Origin: Candidatus Brocadia pituitae
Lineage (GTDB): Bacteria; Planctomycetota; Brocadiia; Brocadiales; Brocadiaceae
DNA: 64,000 nt
Assembly (NCBI GenBank): GCA_017347445.1
Contig: AP021856.1
Location: 3,108,613 to 3,172,612 of the forward strand
Direction of reading: 5' to 3'
Shown here: positions 45,241 through 58,234 of the stretch, one piece after another
Layout: the number at the start of each line of letters is the position of its first letter
Numbering within the stretch: the stretch's first letter is position 1
The notes under the pieces: generated by a model
What the model saw: the letters and a program-made list of their open reading frames with translations, nothing else
What the model was told of the DNA's origin: nothing
Databases searched by the model: none
Position numbers and translations under genes: made by a program

Positions 45241-46926
45241 TTATTGAATGCCCACAGCATCAAAGGCGGTCCGTACGACAGAAAGCTCTTTTCCATTACC
45301 ATAAAGATCTATTGTGGCCTGTTCTACGGCATCCCTGGCATCAACAAATTGAGAATTGGCGGAAAGATAGAACATGGCATAATAATATATTTGTTTTGCC
45401 TTTTTAGCGCCAACGTTTGCATGGGTGGTGATCAGATACGCCGCCTTGTTGGGAATACCAGAGTTAATATGGACTCCTCCATTGTCAGTCCATGGCCAGC
45501 TAGCTGCACGATACTGTTCTGAAGTATGCTCGGGCTGGCCCCAACCGTTCAGCGGATCTTTAGGATTATAGTTGTTTTCAGGATAACTATCGGTTCTGAA
45601 GGGAGGGTCATCAAGTCTTCTCATGGCATAGTATGGCCCTTTAGCATCTTTTATAATATTTTCTGCCATCCAGTATGGCAGGTCGTCACCGTAATCAATC
45701 GATGCAAACATCCCCATGACATCAGACCATGATTCATTCAGTGCACCCGGCTCCTGGCTATAGATAAGATTATTTATTGCCTCGGTAACACCGTGGGTGA
45801 TTTCGTGGGTAACAACGTCCAGCGATCCTGAAAAGGGAAGAAAAGTATTGCCGCCATCTCCATACACCATCTGTGTTCCATCCCAGAAGGCATTTTCATA
45901 ATTGGTTCCATAATGAACGGTTGATAAAAGGCCGTTAGAAGAATCAAAACCACTGCCAGAAAACCAGGAATAGTTGCTGAAGTTATCTTTGTAGAAATCA
46001 AAGACGTAATTTCCGTAAAAATGGGCGTCTATCCCTGCCGGGTCTTCCCAAGAGTTGTTTGCGTCCTTCATGAGGTTTCCCGGAAGGATTTTGAAATTAT
46101 TTGCTGTATAAGTCTTTATTGCCACGGAGGTCGTATTGGAAAGAGGGGCGTTGCCAAGATAGAAAGTGCCATTTTTTTCGTACGTGTCAAAACTCTTTAG
46201 TTTTCCGTCAACGCCGATGCCGGATCCAACAGCAGAACCGGCATGCATAATCCTGTTTTCCGCAAAAACAACAGCGCCGTCATGTGCATCAACATAGACG
46301 CGATATCGTGATGGTTCCGGCTGGGGGTTAAACGCAAAATCTATTGTATAGGCAAGATAGAATTTCTCTTCCCAGTGCAAAATGGTGAGGATTGCAGTGA
46401 TGGCCTTTTTGTCAATACCCAGTTCTTTCCTAGCTATGGCTTCTGCTTCTGCCGGGGAAAGAGTCGGTGTTGTTTTAACCGGGATATTTGGTTCAAAATA
46501 GTTTGCCACGGTGGTGATGATCCCTTCCTGTATCCGTACGGTGATTTTACCGCCTATGACATCAAGCCCATCTTTTTTTTGTTTTACGGTGACATAGGAT
46601 CCGCCAGGTACGGTCTTGACACTTTCTAATGCAATATCCTGTTTCGGGTCTTGTATTCCCAATAAGACCTTGTACTTGTCAATAAAGCCTAAAGCTAATG
46701 CCTCTTGAGACAATGATGGAGTTTCTGCAAGCTCTCCCGAAAGAAATTTCGCAACACCCCGGCGTTCATCCCATTTTATATTAAAATTTTTCGAAGATAT
46801 CTTTTGTAATTCCGCAAGAGCCATTCTTTGATCCTCATTTGCGGCAAAAGGAGATTCTCCAGCCGTAAGATTCCAGCAGCTAAATATTACCACAAAAGAC
46901 ACGATGCCTCTCGCCCAATATTTCAT
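45241..46926 (-). CDS. Secreted M4 (thermolysin-like) metalloprotease precursor
   Basis: The product is 561 residues. Signal peptide: MKYWARGIVSFVVIFSCWNL (cleaved near TAG-ES). A propeptide with FTP and PepSY-like regions covers about 25-215 (GLDVIGGKITVRIQEGI). The catalytic domain has VVTHEITHGVTE, the HExxH zinc site, and GALNESWSDVMGMF with the third ligand Glu. The proton-donor His lies in NGGVHINSGIPNKAAYLI. No C-terminal sorting domain is seen, so the mature enzyme is released outside the cell. A ribosome site AAAGGAAG precedes it. Confidence 0.93.
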   Translation of the reverse strand: MKYWARGIVSFVVIFSCWNLTAGESPFAANEDQRMALAELQKISSKNFNIKWDERRGVAKFLSGELAETPSLSQEALALGFIDKYKVLLGIQDPKQDIALESVKTVPGGSYVTVKQKKDGLDVIGGKITVRIQEGIITTVANYFEPNIPVKTTPTLSPAEAEAIARKELGIDKKAITAILTILHWEEKFYLAYTIDFAFNPQPEPSRYRVYVDAHDGAVVFAENRIMHAGSAVGSGIGVDGKLKSFDTYEKNGTFYLGNAPLSNTTSVAIKTYTANNFKILPGNLMKDANNSWEDPAGIDAHFYGNYVFDFYKDNFSNYSWFSGSGFDSSNGLLSTVHYGTNYENAFWDGTQMVYGDGGNTFLPFSGSLDVVTHEITHGVTEAINNLIYSQEPGALNESWSDVMGMFASIDYGDDLPYWMAENIIKDAKGPYYAMRRLDDPPFRTDSYPENNYNPKDPLNGWGQPEHTSEQYRAASWPWTDNGGVHINSGIPNKAAYLITTHANVGAKKAKQIYYYAMFYLSANSQFVDARDAVEQATIDLYGNGKELSVVRTAFDAVGIQ

Positions 46927-47233
46927 AGTGTATCTTCCTTTCTCTAAGATTTACAAAAAGGCTATTTAAAGTTTTTTACCCTTTGTCAACAAACAATATC
47001 TGACATTTTTGCGGTTCACAAAAAAAATGCCGGGAAAAGGAATGGAAACATCATCTGTGATAGAGGAGAAAAAGAGTCCGGCAAGAAATAAATATCGGTC
47101 TATTTTGCCGTATTTAAAGGGGTAAAACGACTTTATTTTGAAAGAATTGTTGATATTTACGGTTGCATTTGATAGATTTAACAGCCACTTATACTGTTCT
47201 CGTCGGAAAAAATTTAAGAAAGCATATGCAATT

Positions 47234-47437
47234 ATGAATCTCATAGAAGCGATTAATATGGTAGCAAAAGATGAACGTGAATTACAAGAAAAATACTCCA
47301 AGGTGATCGAACAAGAAACGGACCCGTTTGTAAAAGCATTTTTACAAAGAATTGTTAAAGATGCAATAAAACATGAAAAGAAAGTATATAAGAAATACGA
47401 AAAAGTTTTGGCTGCCTTAAACAAGAAGACGTATTAA
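47234..47437 (+). CDS. Small helical protein, ferritin-like fragment
   Basis: The start at 47234 (MNLIEAINMVAKDERELQEK) is chosen over the frame start at 47138 because the extra N-terminus looks unlike protein; there is no strong ribosome site. The 67-residue product forms two amphipathic helices with DERELQEKYSKVIEQETDP and DAIKHEKKVYKKYEKVL. The E..H and H-E pattern recalls rubrerythrin or ferritin-like helix pairs, but no di-iron site is complete. A terminator follows at 47473, which supports a real gene. Function unknown. Confidence 0.5.
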   Translation: MNLIEAINMVAKDERELQEKYSKVIEQETDPFVKAFLQRIVKDAIKHEKKVYKKYEKVLAALNKKTY

Positions 47438-47883: not shown

Positions 47884-48106
47884 ATAAAAAAGATAGAAGT
47901 AGTCCTATGAAACAAACGAACAACATTATCGAATAATAACAGTCAATGATTATTAAATCAAGCGAAATAATAGAATTATCATGTAATGGTGTGATAAAAT
48001 TTATTTGAATTTCAGTTGGGTGTTTGTTACACTCCAACATCCAAATATATCATTGGTTTATAGAGAATATGTATTTTTTGTAATGTTATGGAGGTTTAAC
48101 AAAAAG

Positions 48107-49465
48107 ATGCCTACAGCGGATGTAGATCTTGATACACTCATGAAGGTTGAGTCATTGTCAAGGGAAACCGTCACTCATATCAGGAAACAGGTGTTCAGTT
48201 CCAAAGAAATCAGGGAAAAACTGGATGCAAAGACCGCTTCGCTAAGAATCGGCATAAAAAAGGTTCACGATGTGAACGAAGCAAAAGATATGACCCTTTT
48301 ATTAGGAATATTAGAATGGATGATCGGAAATGTTCGAGAGGCTTCCGAATTTCTGAAAGAGGTGAAATCAAGAAAAATTGGCGTTTATTATCTGGGCAAA
48401 TGCTATCAGGAATTGGGCGACTATGATCATGCTCTAGAATGTTTTGAACGCGCCCAAAAAACCGATGATGAAGAATTTGATATTTGTATGGATATTGCCG
48501 AAACCAAGAGACTAAAAGGCGACAACGAAGATGCCCTGAAGATGATTAAACGTTTTTCCCAATCTCACGGAGATAATCCTGATTTTCATTATCAACTGGG
48601 ATGTTGTCTGGATGCACTTGGCGAATACGATGATGCATTCAATCATTATGGGCAGGCCCTTCGAATAGACCCGAACCATGCTAAATCTCTCTTTCGTATC
48701 GCCTTTTATTATGATCTTAATGGAGAAGACGAAAAAGCCATTGACTCCTATGAACAGTGCATAAACTTATGTCCTAGCCATAAAAATGCGTTTCTTAATC
48801 TGGGAATTTTGTACGAAGATAAAGGCAGCTTTGATGATGCGGTATATTGTTTTGAAACAGTTTTGGACGCGGAACCAAATAATCCCCGGGCATTGCTGTT
48901 TCTAAAGGATGCAAAAGCCTCCATGGGAATGTATTACGACGAGGAGGTTTCAAAAAAACAAGGGAAGGAAAGTGAGGTATTAAATATACCAATCTCAGAT
49001 TTTGAACTCTCGGTAAGAAGCAAAAATTGCCTGGAAAAAATGAATATTCGCACTTTGCGAGACCTGACGAGAATCACCGAGATCGACCTGCTTTCTTTTA
49101 AGAATTTTGGAGAGACCTCACTCAACGAAATCAAGGTTATTTTGTCACAAAAAGGATTACGTTTAGGACAGGCATTGGAAAGCGACAGTAAACCGGATGT
49201 TTTTGGAAAAAATACCGAAACAAAGGCAAGTGTCATTGAGTCTATTTCTGAACTTGAACTATCCGCTCGATGCAGGAGCGCCTTGAGTAAGGAAGGCATT
49301 GAAACAATCGCAGATCTTGTTGAACAAACAGAAATCGCATTGGATCAGAAGGGGATAAAAGAAAATCATATTGCTGAGATACGCGAAAGATTGGCTGAAT
49401 TTGGTCTGACATTGAAAACCGTTGGCAACGGTACGCCGGCGTTAAACGACAGCGAAACAGAGTAG
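48107..49465 (+). CDS. TPR protein with two RNA polymerase alpha C-terminal-like domains
   Basis: The start at 48107 (MPTADVDLDTLMKVESLSRE) is preceded by GGAGG at 48090; the longer frame from 48005 reads as unlike protein. The 452-residue product has a helical N-terminus, then about five TPRs (~90-270). Residues ~291-355 match the alpha-CTD of RNA polymerase: PISDFELSVRSKNCLEKMNI, then LLSFKNFGETSLNEIKVIL. The DNA-contacting Arg and Asn of VRSxNC and the NFGxxSLNEI hairpin are kept. A second, weaker copy covers ~377-440 (ISELELSARCRSALSKEGIE). It may bind UP-like DNA or a transcription factor and join it to a TPR partner; that is inference. Confidence 0.82.
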   Translation: MPTADVDLDTLMKVESLSRETVTHIRKQVFSSKEIREKLDAKTASLRIGIKKVHDVNEAKDMTLLLGILEWMIGNVREASEFLKEVKSRKIGVYYLGKCYQELGDYDHALECFERAQKTDDEEFDICMDIAETKRLKGDNEDALKMIKRFSQSHGDNPDFHYQLGCCLDALGEYDDAFNHYGQALRIDPNHAKSLFRIAFYYDLNGEDEKAIDSYEQCINLCPSHKNAFLNLGILYEDKGSFDDAVYCFETVLDAEPNNPRALLFLKDAKASMGMYYDEEVSKKQGKESEVLNIPISDFELSVRSKNCLEKMNIRTLRDLTRITEIDLLSFKNFGETSLNEIKVILSQKGLRLGQALESDSKPDVFGKNTETKASVIESISELELSARCRSALSKEGIETIADLVEQTEIALDQKGIKENHIAEIRERLAEFGLTLKTVGNGTPALNDSETE

Positions 49466-49518
49466 TTTCCTGAAAAAATTTCGGATGGCACAATTGCGTT
49501 ATCTGGGGATTGCTGTGC

Positions 49519-50109
49519 ATGTTAGATTACATCCGAGGGCGGGTGGTTAGGAAGTCTCCCACAAGGCTTGTCTTGGAAGTAGCGGGCATCGGTTATCTAT
49601 TACACATTCCGTTATCTACCTTTGAGAAAATACCCAATCACGAAGAGACTACCGTTCTTACCCAGTTATTTATCAAGGAAGATCAGATAAAAATCTTTGG
49701 GTTTGCAACAGGAGAAGAACGGGAACTGTTTCAGTTGCTGCTTTCCGTGAATGGCATAGGCCCTACTACCGCAATTACGATACTTTCTGGCAGTTGTGTG
49801 GATGATATTAAAGATGCAGTCGCCCGCGAAGATGCGAAGGCTTTGGAAAAAATCAAAGGGATAGGCAAGAAGACGGCCGAACGGATCGTCCTGGAACTTA
49901 AAGGAGTAATAAAGGAAATGTCGTACCCTGCGGATTCTGGGATAGTTACCGGGCAAAAGGCTCTGGTCTCTGACGCTATTATGGCGCTGGTTTCTTTAGG
50001 GTATGGACGGCCAGTAGCCGAGCATGCAGTAAACGAAGTGATGAAAAAATTGAAAACTATTGATAATGTCGAGGTGCTTGTAAGGGAGGCCCTGAAATAT
50101 AAGGCCTGA
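49519..50109 (+). CDS. ruvA: Holliday junction branch migration protein RuvA
   Basis: The start at 49519 (MLDYIRGRVVRKSPTRLVLE) is chosen by family alignment; 49510 adds three residues. The 196-residue product has the OB domain, helix-hairpin-helix motifs (LLSVNGIGPTTAITIL and LEKIKGIGKKTAERIVLELK) and a C-terminal RuvB-binding domain (SDAIMALVSLGYG). It binds the four-way junction and loads RuvB, encoded 46 bases downstream. Confidence 0.95.
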   Translation: MLDYIRGRVVRKSPTRLVLEVAGIGYLLHIPLSTFEKIPNHEETTVLTQLFIKEDQIKIFGFATGEERELFQLLLSVNGIGPTTAITILSGSCVDDIKDAVAREDAKALEKIKGIGKKTAERIVLELKGVIKEMSYPADSGIVTGQKALVSDAIMALVSLGYGRPVAEHAVNEVMKKLKTIDNVEVLVREALKYKA

Positions 50110-50155: not shown

Positions 50156-51178
50156 ATGATAAAAGAAGATGTTTTATCTTCTACACAGATTGTTGAAGAT
50201 AAAAATCTGGACTTTACCCTCAGGCCGAGGCGATTCAATGATTTTATCGGACAGGACCGCATAAAAGAAAATCTGCTCATTTACATTGAAGCAGCAAAAA
50301 AAAGGGGAGAGCCATTGGATCATATATTGTTTTCCGGGCCTCCTGGCTTGGGAAAAACGACGTTATCTCAAATTATTGCCAATGAAATTAATGCCGCCAT
50401 TAAGACAACTTCCGGCCCCATTCTTGATAAGCCAATGGACCTTGCCGGCATTCTTACAAATTTGCAACAGGGAGACATCCTTTTTATTGACGAAATCCAC
50501 CGGTTAAACACGACCGTTGAAGAGTACCTGTATTCGGCAATGGAAGATTTTTATATTGATATTCTTATCGATCAGGGGCCAAAAGCGCGATCGGTAAAAA
50601 TCAATTTGCCAAAATTTACGCTTGTTGGTTCTACGACCAGGGAAGGATTGCTCACAGCACCGCTTCGTTCGCGCTTCGGAGTCCTGGAAAAATTGGAGTT
50701 TTATCCTTGGACAGACCTTTATAAAGTAGTGTGTAACTCTGCCCGCATTCTTTCTATCCAGACAGATGAAAGAGGGGCTGAAATTATCGCAAAGAGGTCC
50801 CGTGGCACTCCCCGTATAGCCAATAGATTTTTGCGTCGTATCCGGGATGTTGCCCAGGTTCGTGGGAACGATATCATCAATGAAGAGGTCGCCCGCATGG
50901 GCTTGGAAATGTTGGGGGTGGATGAAAATGGATTGGGAGAAATGGACAGAAAGATACTGGAAACCCTTATTCGATACGGTGGTCCCGTCGGTCTGAAAAC
51001 AATAGCGGTTTCGGTAAGCGAAGAAGAAGACACGATTGAGGAAGTGTACGAATCGTATTTGATCCAAAAGGGGTATCTGGATAAAACACCGCGGGGAAGG
51101 ATTGCTACCAGACTCGCTTATGAACATCTAGGATATCAATGCCACTCAGAAACGGGACTCCAAAAAAGACTCTTTTAA
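50156..51178 (+). CDS. ruvB: Holliday junction DNA helicase RuvB
   Basis: The product is 340 residues. [19 protein letters not shown] opens the AAA+ domain. Walker A is [16 protein letters not shown], Walker [12 protein letters not shown], sensor [19 protein letters not shown], and the winged-helix C-terminus contains [20 protein letters not shown] and [13 protein letters not shown]. It drives branch migration with RuvA. ruvC is not in the window. Confidence 0.97.
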
Positions 51179-51190
51179 AGGGGCCGGCAT

Positions 51191-51826
51191 ATGAATCTTT
51201 TGTTGCATATTTGCTGCGCTTGTTGTTTGTGCGCGCCATTACGTGAAATGAGAAAAGAAGGTTTCAGCGTAACGGGGCTCTTTTACAATCCAAATATACA
51301 TCCCTTACTTGAGTTTAGAAAGCGATTAAAGGCATTGCGCGTGTTTCAGGAAAGCGATCCTATCCCGGTAATTTACCATGATGAGTATGGTTTACGGGAA
51401 TATTTGAAGCATGTTGATTATGAGGGCAATGACCGGTGTGCAGATTGTTATACCATGAGACTGAGATTTACTGCGGCATATGCACGTGAAAACGGATTTG
51501 ATGCCTTTACCTCGACTATGCTATTCAGTGTTTATCAAAATCACGGGCAACTAAAAATGTTTTCAGAAAATCTTGCGCATGAATATGGCGTAGCGTTTGT
51601 CTATCGAGATTACCGTTACTTGTCTGAGTGTAGCCATGATATAGCCAGGGAAAAAATGATTTACCGGCAAGGTTACTGTGGGTGTGTGTTCAGTGAATAT
51701 GAGAGATATAAAGACACCACACGAGAGGTGTACAAAGGGAATAAACCCCAGAGCGGGGACAAGGAAAGTAATCACAAAGGTCTTGATACGAAAGATGTGT
51801 TACAAAGGTGCGATTGTTTTGAATAG
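51191..51826 (+). CDS. queH: Epoxyqueuosine reductase QueH
   Basis: The product is 211 residues. The Cys clusters MNLLLHICCACCLCAPL, DRCADCYTMRL and GYCGCVFSEYERYKD are those of the QueH (DUF208) family. QueH is the non-cobalamin replacement for QueG and reduces epoxyqueuosine to queuosine in tRNA, using an iron-sulfur cluster. It is 12 bases after ruvB and near tgt, the first enzyme of the pathway to act on tRNA, so queuosine genes cluster here. Confidence 0.93.
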   Translation: MNLLLHICCACCLCAPLREMRKEGFSVTGLFYNPNIHPLLEFRKRLKALRVFQESDPIPVIYHDEYGLREYLKHVDYEGNDRCADCYTMRLRFTAAYARENGFDAFTSTMLFSVYQNHGQLKMFSENLAHEYGVAFVYRDYRYLSECSHDIAREKMIYRQGYCGCVFSEYERYKDTTREVYKGNKPQSGDKESNHKGLDTKDVLQRCDCFE

Positions 51827-51858: not shown

Positions 51859-53046
51859 ATGGGCAGGACGTTAACATTCATGCTTGCTGCAATAGTGCCG
51901 GTTATTTCTGCCGGGGTACCTCTTTCATGCCAGAGGGGTGCCACGGTGGTGAGGGAAGAGGTCCTTGATTACGGGCCGCTTTTGGATAAAACGCCCATTG
52001 TCCGCGTACTCCTGGTAAATGACAAGCGCGAGGCACAATTGGCTATCCATAGCTGTTATCAGATTACCGGCAGTCTCATGAATATTATTGATCAGGGCCA
52101 GGGACTGCAGAGATGCACCATATCCGTGAGTAACGGCGGCATCATGATAGGAAATAAACGTTATAACAACAGCGAACTAAGGATTGCCGGTCAGCAAGAT
52201 GGGGAGATTGAGGTAAATAATCAGCGATATCGTGGTGAAATCAGGATAGTGCAGCAATTTCACAATAAATTCTCCATAATCGGAGAAATAGATATTGAGG
52301 ATTTTGTTTCTGGCGTAGTTGGAAGTGAAATGCCATCAAGCTGGGAAGAAGATGCCCTGTGTGCACAGTCGGTTGCGGTAAGAACATACGTGATGTATAA
52401 GAAAAAGAGGCGGCGGGATGAGGTTTATCATCTGGATATGCAGGAGCTTGCGTATAAAGGTGTGGCAGGTGAAACGCCACGGGTCAACAAAATGGTACAA
52501 GAAACGAAAGGCGTGGTCATGGTGTACAACTGGAATATTTTCCCTGCCTATTTTCATAGTACGTGTGGGGGACATACGGAAGATGTTAGCCATGTCTTTG
52601 GAAAAGATAGCATGCCACCCTTAAGTGGGGTGGTATGCAATTACTGTAATGATTCCAAACATTCCTATTGGAGCAAAGATATTCGCAAAGCAGAGATTGA
52701 AAAAAAATTACAAGAAGCCAATGTCCCTGTCTCAAACATCAGTGCCGTAAAGATCGTCAATCCGGGGGCTGGTAATCATGGCTCGAAAGTCGAAATTACA
52801 TATGACAAAGGAAGTAAAGAAATGAACGCAAATGATTTCCGGCTATTGGTTGGTCCGAATTATTTGCATAGTACGGCCTTTGATTCCAGAAGCAATGGAA
52901 AAAGTATTACCTTTTCAGGTACAGGATGGGGACATGCCGTGGGGCTTTGCCAGTATGGTGCTCAGGGTATGGCCCAAAAAGGTTTTTCATGGACCGCTAT
53001 TTTAAAACATTACTATCCGAAGATAGAATTAGTTCGGGTATATTAA
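51859..53046 (+). CDS. SpoIID/LytB-domain protein, probable lytic transglycosylase or its enhancer
   Basis: The product is 395 residues. Signal peptide at 1-20 (LTFMLAAIVPVISAG). The SpoIID region (about 125-390) has IEDFVSGVVGSEMPSSWEED, ALCAQSVAVRTYVMYKKKR, AYFHSTCGGHTEDVSHVF and the C-terminal GTGWGHAVGLCQYGAQGMA. This domain cuts denuded glycan strands in SpoIID and enhances amidases in LytB. In a non-sporulating bacterium it probably acts in wall turnover outside the membrane. It lies between queH and tgt. Confidence 0.9.
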   Translation: MGRTLTFMLAAIVPVISAGVPLSCQRGATVVREEVLDYGPLLDKTPIVRVLLVNDKREAQLAIHSCYQITGSLMNIIDQGQGLQRCTISVSNGGIMIGNKRYNNSELRIAGQQDGEIEVNNQRYRGEIRIVQQFHNKFSIIGEIDIEDFVSGVVGSEMPSSWEEDALCAQSVAVRTYVMYKKKRRRDEVYHLDMQELAYKGVAGETPRVNKMVQETKGVVMVYNWNIFPAYFHSTCGGHTEDVSHVFGKDSMPPLSGVVCNYCNDSKHSYWSKDIRKAEIEKKLQEANVPVSNISAVKIVNPGAGNHGSKVEITYDKGSKEMNANDFRLLVGPNYLHSTAFDSRSNGKSITFSGTGWGHAVGLCQYGAQGMAQKGFSWTAILKHYYPKIELVRVY

Positions 53047-54171
<1,125 letters not shown>

Positions 54172-54244: not shown

Positions 54245-54616
54245 ATGATGTTTTTTTTATTACAAGCGGCAGGAAAACAGTCATCGCCAGGTGGTATGCT
54301 GTCCATGCTGCTTCCGTTTGTCCTTATGTTTGTCGTAATGTATTTTCTGATCCTGAGACCGCAAAAAAGAAAGGAAAAGGAGCGCAAGGCCTTGCTGTCA
54401 AGGATCAAAAAAAACGACCGGGTCGTAACCGCCGGAGGAATCCATGGATTAGTCACTTCTGTCAGAGAGCATGAGGTTATTCTTCGTATAGACGATGCCA
54501 AAGATATAAAGATTAAGGTTGACAGGACCGCGATTGCTGGGGTATTAGAGGTTTCTCACGACGACGATACCGAAGAGACAAAAGAATCTCTTCAGGCGAA
54601 CAAAGAGACGAAGTAA
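54245..54616 (+). CDS. yajC: Preprotein translocase subunit YajC
   Basis: The product is 123 residues. One membrane helix (about 18-38, LLPFVLMFVVMYFLILRPQ) is followed by KRKEKERKALLSRIKKNDRV and VTAGGIHGLVTSV, the YajC signature. It associates with SecDF, encoded 72 bases downstream. GGAGGAAT precedes the start. Confidence 0.93.
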   Translation: MMFFLLQAAGKQSSPGGMLSMLLPFVLMFVVMYFLILRPQKRKEKERKALLSRIKKNDRVVTAGGIHGLVTSVREHEVILRIDDAKDIKIKVDRTAIAGVLEVSHDDDTEETKESLQANKETK

Positions 54617-54688: not shown

Positions 54689-57600
54689 ATGACGAAAAAC
54701 TTAAGGTGGAGAATACCTATCATTGCGGTAGTGGTTGCTCTTGGCATCATGATTTTGTATCCACCGTCAGAAAAGATTTTGAAGAAGGAGCAGGTGAAAG
54801 AGATTGACGGTACTGTAGTCGAACGGACGCTACTGGAAAAATCATGGACACGGTTCTTCATAACAAACCCTGTTATTCGTGAAACGATTGTTGGTGAAGA
54901 AACGGACAAAGATGGCAGGAATATCCGCAACAAGGTCGTCGAGCAGGTATCAAAGGGAAAGATTAAGCTTGGCTTAGATCTCAAAGGCGGCTCAGAGTTG
55001 TTGTATGAAGTAAGAGTGGATGAAAGGGAAGAACGTCCTGGTATTACCAGGGAAATCATAGAAGTATTGAAAAAGAGGATTGATCCTCAGGGGGTTATCG
55101 AATACAGAATACAAGAGCATGGCAGCCACCGGATACTCATACAGGTGCCGGGCGCAACAAGGACGGAAATAGAAGGGCTGAAAACACGAATTACACGGCT
55201 GGGTAAGCTCGAGTTTCGGTTGGCGGCGAGCAGTGACAGTCCGGAATATAAAGAGGCCATGGAGGAAAAACAAGTCCCGGGTTTTTACAAACAATGGTTG
55301 CGTAAGAAAAAGGGAGAAGTAGGTGAGGCTGGCAAATGGTTCCTTGTTCAAAATAAGGCTGCCATTTCCGGGGAACATTTGTCCAGAATATACGCTGACC
55401 GTAAGGGAATCGAACCCGTTGTGGGGTTTGAATTTGATGCCATAGGCAAATCCAAATTCGGGCAGATAACCGAACGTAACATTGGCAAACCGCTGGCAAT
55501 TATCTTAGACGGTACCTTATATTCAGCGCCTGTTATCCGTGACCGCATACCAGGACAAGGCATCATTGAAGGAAATTTTACCCAGGATGAGGTAAATGAG
55601 CTTATCGCCATTATGCGGGCAGGAAGTCTTCCGGCAGATCTTGAACTTGAAATGGAAACCATGGTCGGACCGAGTTTGGGAAGAGATTCCATTAACAGAG
55701 GTTTAATTGCGGGGGCCATTGGCGGCGCATTTGCCATCATTTTCATTGGCATTTATTATTTGGGAGTAGGGTGGATTGCCAACTGTGCAAATGCCTTGAA
55801 CATCTTTCTTATTGTGAGTGCAATGGCGCTTCTGAATGCTACCATGACGCTTCCTGGTATTGCAGGATTGGTGCTCATGATTGGTATGGGTATAGATGCC
55901 AACGTGCTTATTTTTGAAAGAATCCGCGAAGAAAAAAACAAGGGAAAACCTACCCGTGCCGCCGTTAAGGCGGGATATGAAAAGGCCTTTTCCGCTATCT
56001 TTGACTCAAATATTACCACCCTGATTACCGGGGTAATACTTGCCTCTGTTGGTACCGGGCCGGTAAAAGGATTTGCATGGACATTGATCCTGGGTTTGAT
56101 CATCAATCTTTTTACGGCTATTTTTGTGACCAGGGTAATTTATGATGTGTTTATGGATTTAAGCTGGATCAAGAAATTTTCCATGTTTAAGCTCATTGGC
56201 ATTCCCCATGTTAAATTTATTAATTATCGTTTTACTCTGCTCGCTATTTCTGGTGCGTGTATTATCGGTGGATTGACTACGTTTGCCCTCCGCGGAAATA
56301 AAAAATACGACATCGATTTTACCGGTGGAACACTTGTCCATCTCCACTTAAATAATTCCACCCCACCGGGATTTATCAGGAGCGCTTTGGCAGAGACCGG
56401 CTATGAGGAAGCTGAGGTACAAAGTATTTGGGCCGGAGAGAATTTAACACAGTTTGCCTCAACCGCAAATGAATTTGGCATCAGAATAAAAGATCTGGGA
56501 GATGAAAAGGTAAAAGAAAAATTAACTGATGATATCAGGAGCGTTTTGGGTAAGAAAGATTTGTTTGAAGGGATTGATTTTATTGAACCGCTCATTTTTC
56601 ATCTGAGGCTTACAAAGCCAATAGATGAGGAGTTCCTGCAAAAAAGCCTAAAAACTGCTGGCTATAGCGAGGAAGACGTGCTATCTACAGTGCCGGTAAA
56701 TCAATCGTCCAGGGAGTATTTGGTAAATATTCTCGGTTTGGAAGATACGAAAAAACGTTCACGAATGGTTAGTGCAATCGTCGATGGATTGAAAGAAAAC
56801 CTGATCTTCAAGGACGTTAAAATCGTGCTCGGTGACGTTGTTGAAGCCTTGCTGACACAAAAAACGGATGCGCCTGCTGCTCAGCCTTTTATGGATGTGG
56901 AAGCCGGAGAACCTGTCGATCCGGCGATTCTTACCTTCGAGCTTCACAAGCGGGGGTTTGGCAATGTTGCAGTAACAGGCCAATCGAAAGAATCCGCAAA
57001 TGAACGGACAAACAAGCTGAAAATAGAGGGATCGAGAACAAGCTTGCAAGAGATAAAACAAACGCTGAAGGATACCATCGCCGTACCAAGCATTTCTCTC
57101 ATAGGGTATGAAGCGATCCGGGTTGAATTAAAAGAAGGTATAGGAAAGGCAAATTTTGTAACGATCCTTCATGGGATTAAGCCTGTCAGTGATGCGGTAA
57201 AAAGCGTTTTGACAATGAATGCGCCAGCGCAAGTGTTTGCAATTCATATGCAGCCTTTAAGTGCAGGAAAAGTTCAGGAGAAGATTAAAAACGATGTTAT
57301 TGAAAAATTTAAGGACAACTTGTATAAAGAAAAGGTGCGTGTGTCTTTTGAATTGCTTAAAGATGCTTCCGAAAGTATAATGGCAACCGATGATAAGTCA
57401 GGCCAGGCGCATACCGCGCTCTTTCGCATGAACTTGTCAAAACCCCTGAAAAAGGAGGTTATTGAAGAAGTGCTTGCCTCGGCAGGCTATCACGATGTTC
57501 TGGAACAGGGTTTGGAATCCGGCAAAGAATATCAAACAGTTAAGATATCCCTTCCTTCTCAAAAAACCGAGATGATAGAAAAGACCATTCAAAATGCGTT

Positions 57601-58234
57601 TGAAATACCACAACCCCTGAAACGGATTATCAGCATTGGCGCTACAGTTGCTGGTGAAATGAAGGGACGCGCCATCCTTGCGGTGATCTTTTCCTGTATT
57701 GCAACCATCTTTTATGTATGGCTGCGTTTTGGAGACCTTAAATTCGGTTCTTCCGCGATTATCGCTGTTATTCATGACATCCTGATTACCCTGGGTGCGG
57801 TAGCAGTTGCAGATTATTTTTTTGGCAACATGAAGATCGACAGCGCCATGGTAGCTGCATTTCTCACTGTTGTTGGTTACTCCCTGAATGATACGATCGT
57901 CATCTTTGACCGGATCAGGGAAAATATGGGGGGGCGTGGTAATTTGCTTACCCCGCAATTGGTTAATGACAGTATCAACCAGACACTGAGCAGGACACTC
58001 CTGACAGGGATCACTACGATTGGGGTGTTGTGTGCGCTCTTTTTCGTGGGCGGACCCGAGATTCATGGTTTCGCATTTGTGATGCTCGTGGGAATTATTG
58101 TAGGCACATATTCAACGATATTTATTGCATGCCCTATGCTCCTCAAATGGAAGGGACTCCCTTCTGCAAACCAGGCATTGCCCCGGCAAAATTACCCGGC
58201 TCAAAGAAAGGAGGCAACCGCTAAAAAGGGATAA
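54689..58234 (+). CDS. secDF: SecD-SecF fusion with a large repeat insertion
   Basis: The product is 1,181 residues. The SecD half has a first membrane helix (about 6-28), GLDLKGGSELLYEV and the five-helix block ending GMGIDANVLIFERIREEKNK (~330-500). The SecF half opens with KKYDIDFTGGTLVHLHL (~530-550) and closes with its own helix block, AAFLTVVGYSLNDTIVIFDRI. Between residues ~555 and 965 lies an insert of about 400 residues in the SecF periplasmic region, where ~100 are usual. It holds three to four degenerate repeats of ~80 residues (LIFHLRLTKPIDEEFLQKSL, ALFRMNLSKPLKKEVIEEVL). SecDF pulls exported proteins across using the proton or sodium gradient. Confidence 0.95.
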   Translation: MTKNLRWRIPIIAVVVALGIMILYPPSEKILKKEQVKEIDGTVVERTLLEKSWTRFFITNPVIRETIVGEETDKDGRNIRNKVVEQVSKGKIKLGLDLKGGSELLYEVRVDEREERPGITREIIEVLKKRIDPQGVIEYRIQEHGSHRILIQVPGATRTEIEGLKTRITRLGKLEFRLAASSDSPEYKEAMEEKQVPGFYKQWLRKKKGEVGEAGKWFLVQNKAAISGEHLSRIYADRKGIEPVVGFEFDAIGKSKFGQITERNIGKPLAIILDGTLYSAPVIRDRIPGQGIIEGNFTQDEVNELIAIMRAGSLPADLELEMETMVGPSLGRDSINRGLIAGAIGGAFAIIFIGIYYLGVGWIANCANALNIFLIVSAMALLNATMTLPGIAGLVLMIGMGIDANVLIFERIREEKNKGKPTRAAVKAGYEKAFSAIFDSNITTLITGVILASVGTGPVKGFAWTLILGLIINLFTAIFVTRVIYDVFMDLSWIKKFSMFKLIGIPHVKFINYRFTLLAISGACIIGGLTTFALRGNKKYDIDFTGGTLVHLHLNNSTPPGFIRSALAETGYEEAEVQSIWAGENLTQFASTANEFGIRIKDLGDEKVKEKLTDDIRSVLGKKDLFEGIDFIEPLIFHLRLTKPIDEEFLQKSLKTAGYSEEDVLSTVPVNQSSREYLVNILGLEDTKKRSRMVSAIVDGLKENLIFKDVKIVLGDVVEALLTQKTDAPAAQPFMDVEAGEPVDPAILTFELHKRGFGNVAVTGQSKESANERTNKLKIEGSRTSLQEIKQTLKDTIAVPSISLIGYEAIRVELKEGIGKANFVTILHGIKPVSDAVKSVLTMNAPAQVFAIHMQPLSAGKVQEKIKNDVIEKFKDNLYKEKVRVSFELLKDASESIMATDDKSGQAHTALFRMNLSKPLKKEVIEEVLASAGYHDVLEQGLESGKEYQTVKISLPSQKTEMIEKTIQNAFEIPQPLKRIISIGATVAGEMKGRAILAVIFSCIATIFYVWLRFGDLKFGSSAIIAVIHDILITLGAVAVADYFFGNMKIDSAMVAAFLTVVGYSLNDTIVIFDRIRENMGGRGNLLTPQLVNDSINQTLSRTLLTGITTIGVLCALFFVGGPEIHGFAFVMLVGIIVGTYSTIFIACPMLLKWKGLPSANQALPRQNYPAQRKEATAKKG

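Follow-up and report, generated by a model that had tools for sequence, protein, structure and literature searches.

The closest described relative of the protein reported here is the C-terminal domain of the RNA polymerase alpha subunit (alpha-CTD; PF03118; residues 249-329 of E. coli RpoA), in which R265 and N268 are needed for DNA binding and both touch DNA in the crystal structure (PMC11434276). Two other groups of proteins are comparable in part, namely TPR superhelix proteins such as MamA (3vtx), TTC0263 (2pl2) and the TPR domain of OGT, and NCBIfam family NF005841 (PRK07758), a 95-residue "hypothetical protein" with an alpha-CTD-like domain outside RpoA.

The window analyzed, a stretch of 64,000 nucleotides from Candidatus Brocadia pituitae, encodes at 48107-49465 (+ strand) a protein of 452 amino acids in which a TPR superhelix is followed by two alpha-CTD domains, CTD1 and CTD2. 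This TPR-alphaCTD protein shares with the polymerase alpha-CTD the sequence family, the predicted fold and, in CTD1, all seven contact positions, but its domains lack an alpha-NTD, are fused to TPRs, occur in two copies and carry E rather than K at position 297; furthermore, the gene lies away from the ribosomal-protein cluster that houses the true rpoA. The repeat motif and, in the model, the superhelix are common to the TPR proteins, whereas none of the TPR matches seen has alpha-CTD domains, and two features are specific to this family, an M-x-Y-D-E-E connector and a conserved E-D pair (positions 12-13 of the final repeat). NF005841 aligns with residues 300-352 at 35 bits, below its cut-off of 115; it shows weak similarity only, is far shorter, lacks TPRs and has one copy of the domain. 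Both pieces are recognized by domain databases, while their combination, its near-universality in the phylum and its function are not described in the open-licence full texts searched, so that the statement in the initial annotation that no function is established for this architecture stands uncontradicted.

Gene and Domain Organization

The open reading frame begins with an ATG at 48107, 12 bases downstream of a GGAGG, and its stop codon ends at 49465. The nearest named loci are 77-78% identical, the host being a Candidatus Brocadia relative. The following features were assigned:

48107..49465, + strand: TPR-alphaCTD gene, 452 aa plus stop (ORF; GGAGG Shine-Dalgarno at about 48091-48095; phylum-wide orthologues)
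48107..48373, + strand: N-terminal helical region, residues 1-89 (AlphaFold2 helices; conservation)
48374..48931, + strand: TPR superhelix, residues 90-275 (Pfam; Foldseek matches to TPR superhelices; conservation)
48929..48991, + strand: TPR-to-CTD1 connector with M-x-Y-D-E-E motif, residues 275-295 (conservation)
48992..49171, + strand: CTD1 with intact DNA-contact set, residues 296-355 (PF03118, E 1.2e-22; PDB matches to alpha-CTDs; residues)
49172..49243, + strand: spacer from CTD1 to CTD2, variable and of low confidence, residues 356-379 (pLDDT below 50 at 362-373; conservation 0.26)
49244..49420, + strand: CTD2, divergent alpha-CTD, residues 380-438 (PF03118, E 3.5e-9; pLDDT about 90)

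Upstream of the gene lie a 99-residue ORF (47138-47437, + strand) with a weak, sub-threshold ferritin/rubrerythrin-like match and, at 45241-46926 (- strand), a thermolysin-type (M4) metallopeptidase with a PepSY propeptide, noted here in a genome of the anammox type.

Pfam recognizes tandem 34-residue repeats in four stretches of the TPR part (TPR_2, E 2.4e-30, 102.5 bits). Tested alone, CTD1 (79.8 bits) and CTD2 (36.7 bits) both exceed the curated cut-off of 23.8 bits for PF03118 (RNA_pol_A_CTD). When the whole protein was compared with PDB sequences using phmmer, only alpha subunits were matched, the best alignments (from E 1.2e-11) pairing CTD1 with the alpha-CTDs of E. coli and other bacteria. 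The AlphaFold2 model (58-row alignment; mean pLDDT 87.8, pTM 0.63) consists of a confident TPR array and two small helical domains. Its N-terminal two-thirds resemble TPR superhelices in Foldseek, and within residues 280-452 the predicted compact helical alpha-CTD fold superimposes on 3n4m and 3n97 with an rmsd of 1.0 Å over 64-65 columns. The former is the E. coli domain in complex with CAP and DNA; 9zum, the Caulobacter alpha-CTD on A+T-rich DNA, was also top-ranked against the C-terminal model. The proposal that a TPR protein carries two alpha-CTD domains is thereby borne out by sequence and by predicted structure alike.

Two other identities were rejected. A generic helix-hairpin-helix (HhH) fold does not account for the matches, because the neighboring RuvA has no PF03118 match in the same search; the two CTDs match PF03118 but not the general HHH families. 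Neither is the gene a displaced or duplicated rpoA: it lacks the alpha-NTD, matching the RpoA model TIGR02027 only over positions 218-297 (105.9 against a cut-off of 227.8), and a complete rpoA, the separate gene for which a check had been advised, encodes 338 residues beside ribosomal-protein genes elsewhere.

Conservation of CTD1

In the window protein CTD1 keeps R265, N268, C269, N294, G296, S299 and E302 (E. coli numbering), as the initial annotation had recognized. R265 and N268 apart, the E. coli DNA- and protein-contact assignments used here are those that we take to be correct. Among 70 orthologues each of the seven is kept in 93-100% (R265 in 69, N268 in 66, C269 in 65, N294 in 69, G296 in 70, S299 in 69 and E302 in 70). 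At these sites the orthologues are on average 97.6% identical to E. coli, compared with 44% over 40 comparable sites, and none of 20,000 random seven-site sets equaled this value; RpoA proteins from Planctomycetota reach 91% at the same positions. No other part of the protein is as well conserved as CTD1 (majority-residue share 0.75; other parts 0.26-0.59), and the pairwise identity of CTD1, 67%, is about equal to that of planctomycete RpoA-CTDs (64%). Since the DNA-contact face is strictly preserved in a domain that is not part of the polymerase, continuing DNA binding is the best explanation. On this reading the protein descends from the alpha-CTD of RNA polymerase or has a common ancestor with it.

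Three positions set CTD1 apart from planctomycete RpoA: 260 is F instead of L, 267 is R or K where RpoA mostly has S, and 297 is E in place of K. Position 297 is K in 28 of 29 planctomycete RpoA sequences and E in 62 of 70 CTD1 sequences. The substitution places a negative charge beside the DNA-contact loop and could weaken or retune DNA binding by CTD1; confidence in the DNA-binding reading is limited because the DNA face may be altered in this way. A further change, T for E. coli K298, alters the normal DNA-contact set phylum-wide and is not specific to the TPR-alphaCTD protein, because it is common to the planctomycete RpoA-CTDs examined (28 of 29).

The same charge at 297, adjoining the DNA face, would suit an alternative in which CTD1 acts as a decoy or bridge, titrating or linking regulators such as sigma region 4 or activators through protein contacts and not through its own binding to DNA. 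Positions 259 and 261, acidic residues that face sigma in the E. coli domain, are conserved in 87-91% of CTD1 sequences, a point that favors the preferred reading as well; for D259, E261 and E286 the range is 87-97%. The DNA-contact positions are nevertheless stricter (97.6%) than the protein-contact ones, of which 257, 258 and 287 vary, and we regard a decoy or bridge as unlikely, if the strongest of the rival explanations.

TPR Scaffold and Connector

The N-terminal residues 1-90 are the least conserved of the folded parts (mean majority-residue share 0.32). Within the TPR array conservation climbs toward CTD1 and is highest in the last full repeat (226-258), where E237, D238 and C248 are kept in 93-96% of sequences. 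It extends into the connector (M275 94%, D278 93%, E279 89%, L292 94%, P295 94%), the main positions of M-x-Y-D-E-E being 84-94% conserved. Conservation of the last repeat and the connector suggests that the protein has a specific partner or that its last repeats are held in a set position relative to CTD1.

Distribution

A search with the window protein revealed an orthologue matching through CTD1 (E 2.4e-39 or better) in 146 of the 148 Planctomycetota genomes that are at least 90% complete, which answers the call for a survey of the planctomycetes. One of the two exceptions (G031) has a single PF03118 hit; the other (G143) probably contains a broken or split gene, because three PF03118 hits remain. 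PF03118 matches were found in 292 of 294 Planctomycetota genomes, about 228 of which have exactly three, the typical trio being rpoA and the two domains of the TPR-alphaCTD protein. In G019, G058, G192 and some 33 more planctomycete genomes four to six hits were counted, which hints at paralogues or additional alpha-CTD architectures.

Two diagnostic peptide patterns were scanned against 84,980 species genomes, and the best 80 loci of a longer list were taken. All but three of these records are from planctomycetes (Brocadia, Loosdrechtia, Scalindua, Gemmata, Phycisphaerae, Pirellulales and others); two of the three have no phylum in their titles, one of them coinciding with a sampled Planctomycetota genome, and the third is a contig binned as an Ignavibacteria MAG (L108; JAERMQ010000120.1). 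Spread beyond the phylum by way of this record was rejected: the contig is taken as mis-binned, and probably a contaminant, because it is 3.6 kb long, orthologues from the window's own genus share up to 77% identity with its protein, and the rpoA of the genome itself differs. Among 118 Bacteroidota genomes a single strong PF03118 hit, rpoA, is the rule, a few having an extra weak partial hit, and two strong hits occur in the L108 bin alone. The PF03118 survey covered Planctomycetota and, reached through the genome of L108, Bacteroidota; exclusivity to Planctomycetota is not claimed. An origin from phages or plasmids was likewise rejected, as the viral contigs searched encode no relative of the protein, plasmids gave only TPR matches, to Azospirillum, and PHROGs gave no significant match.

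CTD2 and Domain History

In the window genome CTD2 retains just two of the contact residues, R265 and E302. Across orthologues these two are almost always present and N294, G296 and S299 are found in about 80%, while position 268 is N in only 13% (replaced by K or R) and position 269 is C in 40%. The description of the second copy as a divergent repeat holds for the Brocadiales, Brocadia included, which have lost the G-x-T-S hairpin, but not for most of the phylum, where CTD2 retains it. In one genus of the Brocadiaceae (L042-L044) the match ends after CTD1, and CTD2 has been lost, since these genomes hold only two PF03118 hits; the pair is therefore not obligatory. The match to a 60% identical protein in a lake MAG (L110) likewise ends after CTD1.

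In a FastTree phylogeny CTD1, CTD2 and RpoA-CTD domains form separate groups (support 0.92-0.97), no more than four CTD1 sequences being misplaced; the domain is short, and deeper branching is left uninterpreted. Because the three groups stand apart, the tree suggests that the duplication giving CTD1 and CTD2 is older than the radiation of the Planctomycetota.

Gene Neighborhood

Downstream of the TPR-alphaCTD gene the window contains:

49510..50109, + strand: ruvA, which follows on the same strand (Pfam RuvA_N, HHH_5, RuvA_C)
50156..51178, + strand: ruvB (Pfam RuvB_N and RuvB_C)
51191..51826, + strand: queH (Pfam QueH, E 2.6e-52)
51859..53046, + strand: SpoIID-domain protein (Pfam SpoIID, E 5.9e-20)
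53062..54171, + strand: tgt, queuine tRNA-ribosyltransferase (Pfam TGT, E 1.1e-156)
54245..54613, + strand: yajC (Pfam YajC, E 9.3e-29)
54689..58234, + strand: secDF fusion (Pfam SecD_SecF_C, E 1.1e-72)

When the genes of the window served as queries, a member of this set was identified as the next same-strand gene in 60 of the best 80 loci (spoIID 33, ruvA 16, tgt 10, queH 1), many of which, contig permitting, continue to tgt, yajC and secDF. The TPR-alphaCTD gene is usually the first in such a run with ruvAB, spoIID, tgt, yajC and secDF and, because the same neighbors recur across loci, has long belonged to a housekeeping cluster, which by itself singles out no function.

The alpha-CTD fold is a member of the HhH group, and in the Brocadiales and a small number of further lineages ruvA is the next gene; both would fit a part in DNA repair or chromosome organization, in which the HhH-type domains would bind DNA structures and the protein would work with RuvAB or in the nucleoid. 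Given that spoIID or tgt, not ruvA, is the neighbor in most other loci, that the preserved residues are specific to alpha-CTDs and that HHH families are unmatched, we hold such a role to be rather improbable. The linkage of spoIID, tgt, yajC and secDF on the same strand across the phylum raises another explanation, an adaptor outside transcription with the TPR, a general protein-binding fold, as its working part and the alpha-CTDs as a recycled protein-protein module, perhaps serving the downstream Sec, queuosine or cell-wall genes. If CTD1 were a spare module it should be less conserved than the TPRs; the opposite is seen (0.75 against 0.43-0.59), and neighbors of this kind are general housekeeping genes which may share only a promoter. 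An adaptor of this sort seems to us a long shot, on a par with the repair role.

Proposed Role

The reading that we prefer, at about an even chance of being correct, is that of a core planctomycete DNA-binding factor in which CTD1 binds the minor groove, the TPRs hold a partner and the protein acts in trans on transcription initiation. CTD1 would contact the minor groove of A+T-rich DNA through R265, N268, N294, G296, S299 and E302, with CTD2 a second copy on a flexible tether, either weaker or partner-binding. The last TPR repeats and the M-x-Y-D-E-E connector would hold a dedicated protein partner near promoters. The whole may be pictured as a detachable alpha-CTD modulating initiation in trans, which would either bring the partner held by the TPRs to A+T-rich DNA at promoters or make alpha-CTD contacts, to sigma or RNA polymerase for example, available from outside the enzyme. 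Counting against this reading, a single free alpha-CTD of E. coli binds DNA weakly and normally relies on tethering to the polymerase. A narrower version is offered more tentatively, as somewhat short of an even chance: a phylum-wide accessory factor, found beside the ordinary polymerase in practically all species, whose TPR-tethered alpha-CTD would provide UP-element and activator contacts in trans or compete for them. The functions suggested in the initial annotation, competition with RNA polymerase or its recruitment at UP elements and a link from activators to a TPR partner, would agree with the observations made here.

Planctomycetes have an unusual cell biology and their gene regulation is poorly known. 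The essential genes of one tractable member of the phylum, Planctopirus limnophila, have been mapped (PMC10632474). Almost every planctomycete apparently carries the TPR-alphaCTD protein, so that the phylum may possess one more transcription factor made from a piece of the polymerase. The DNA-contact face of this protein, as strict as that of the enzyme, points toward a layer of general transcription control in the Planctomycetota.
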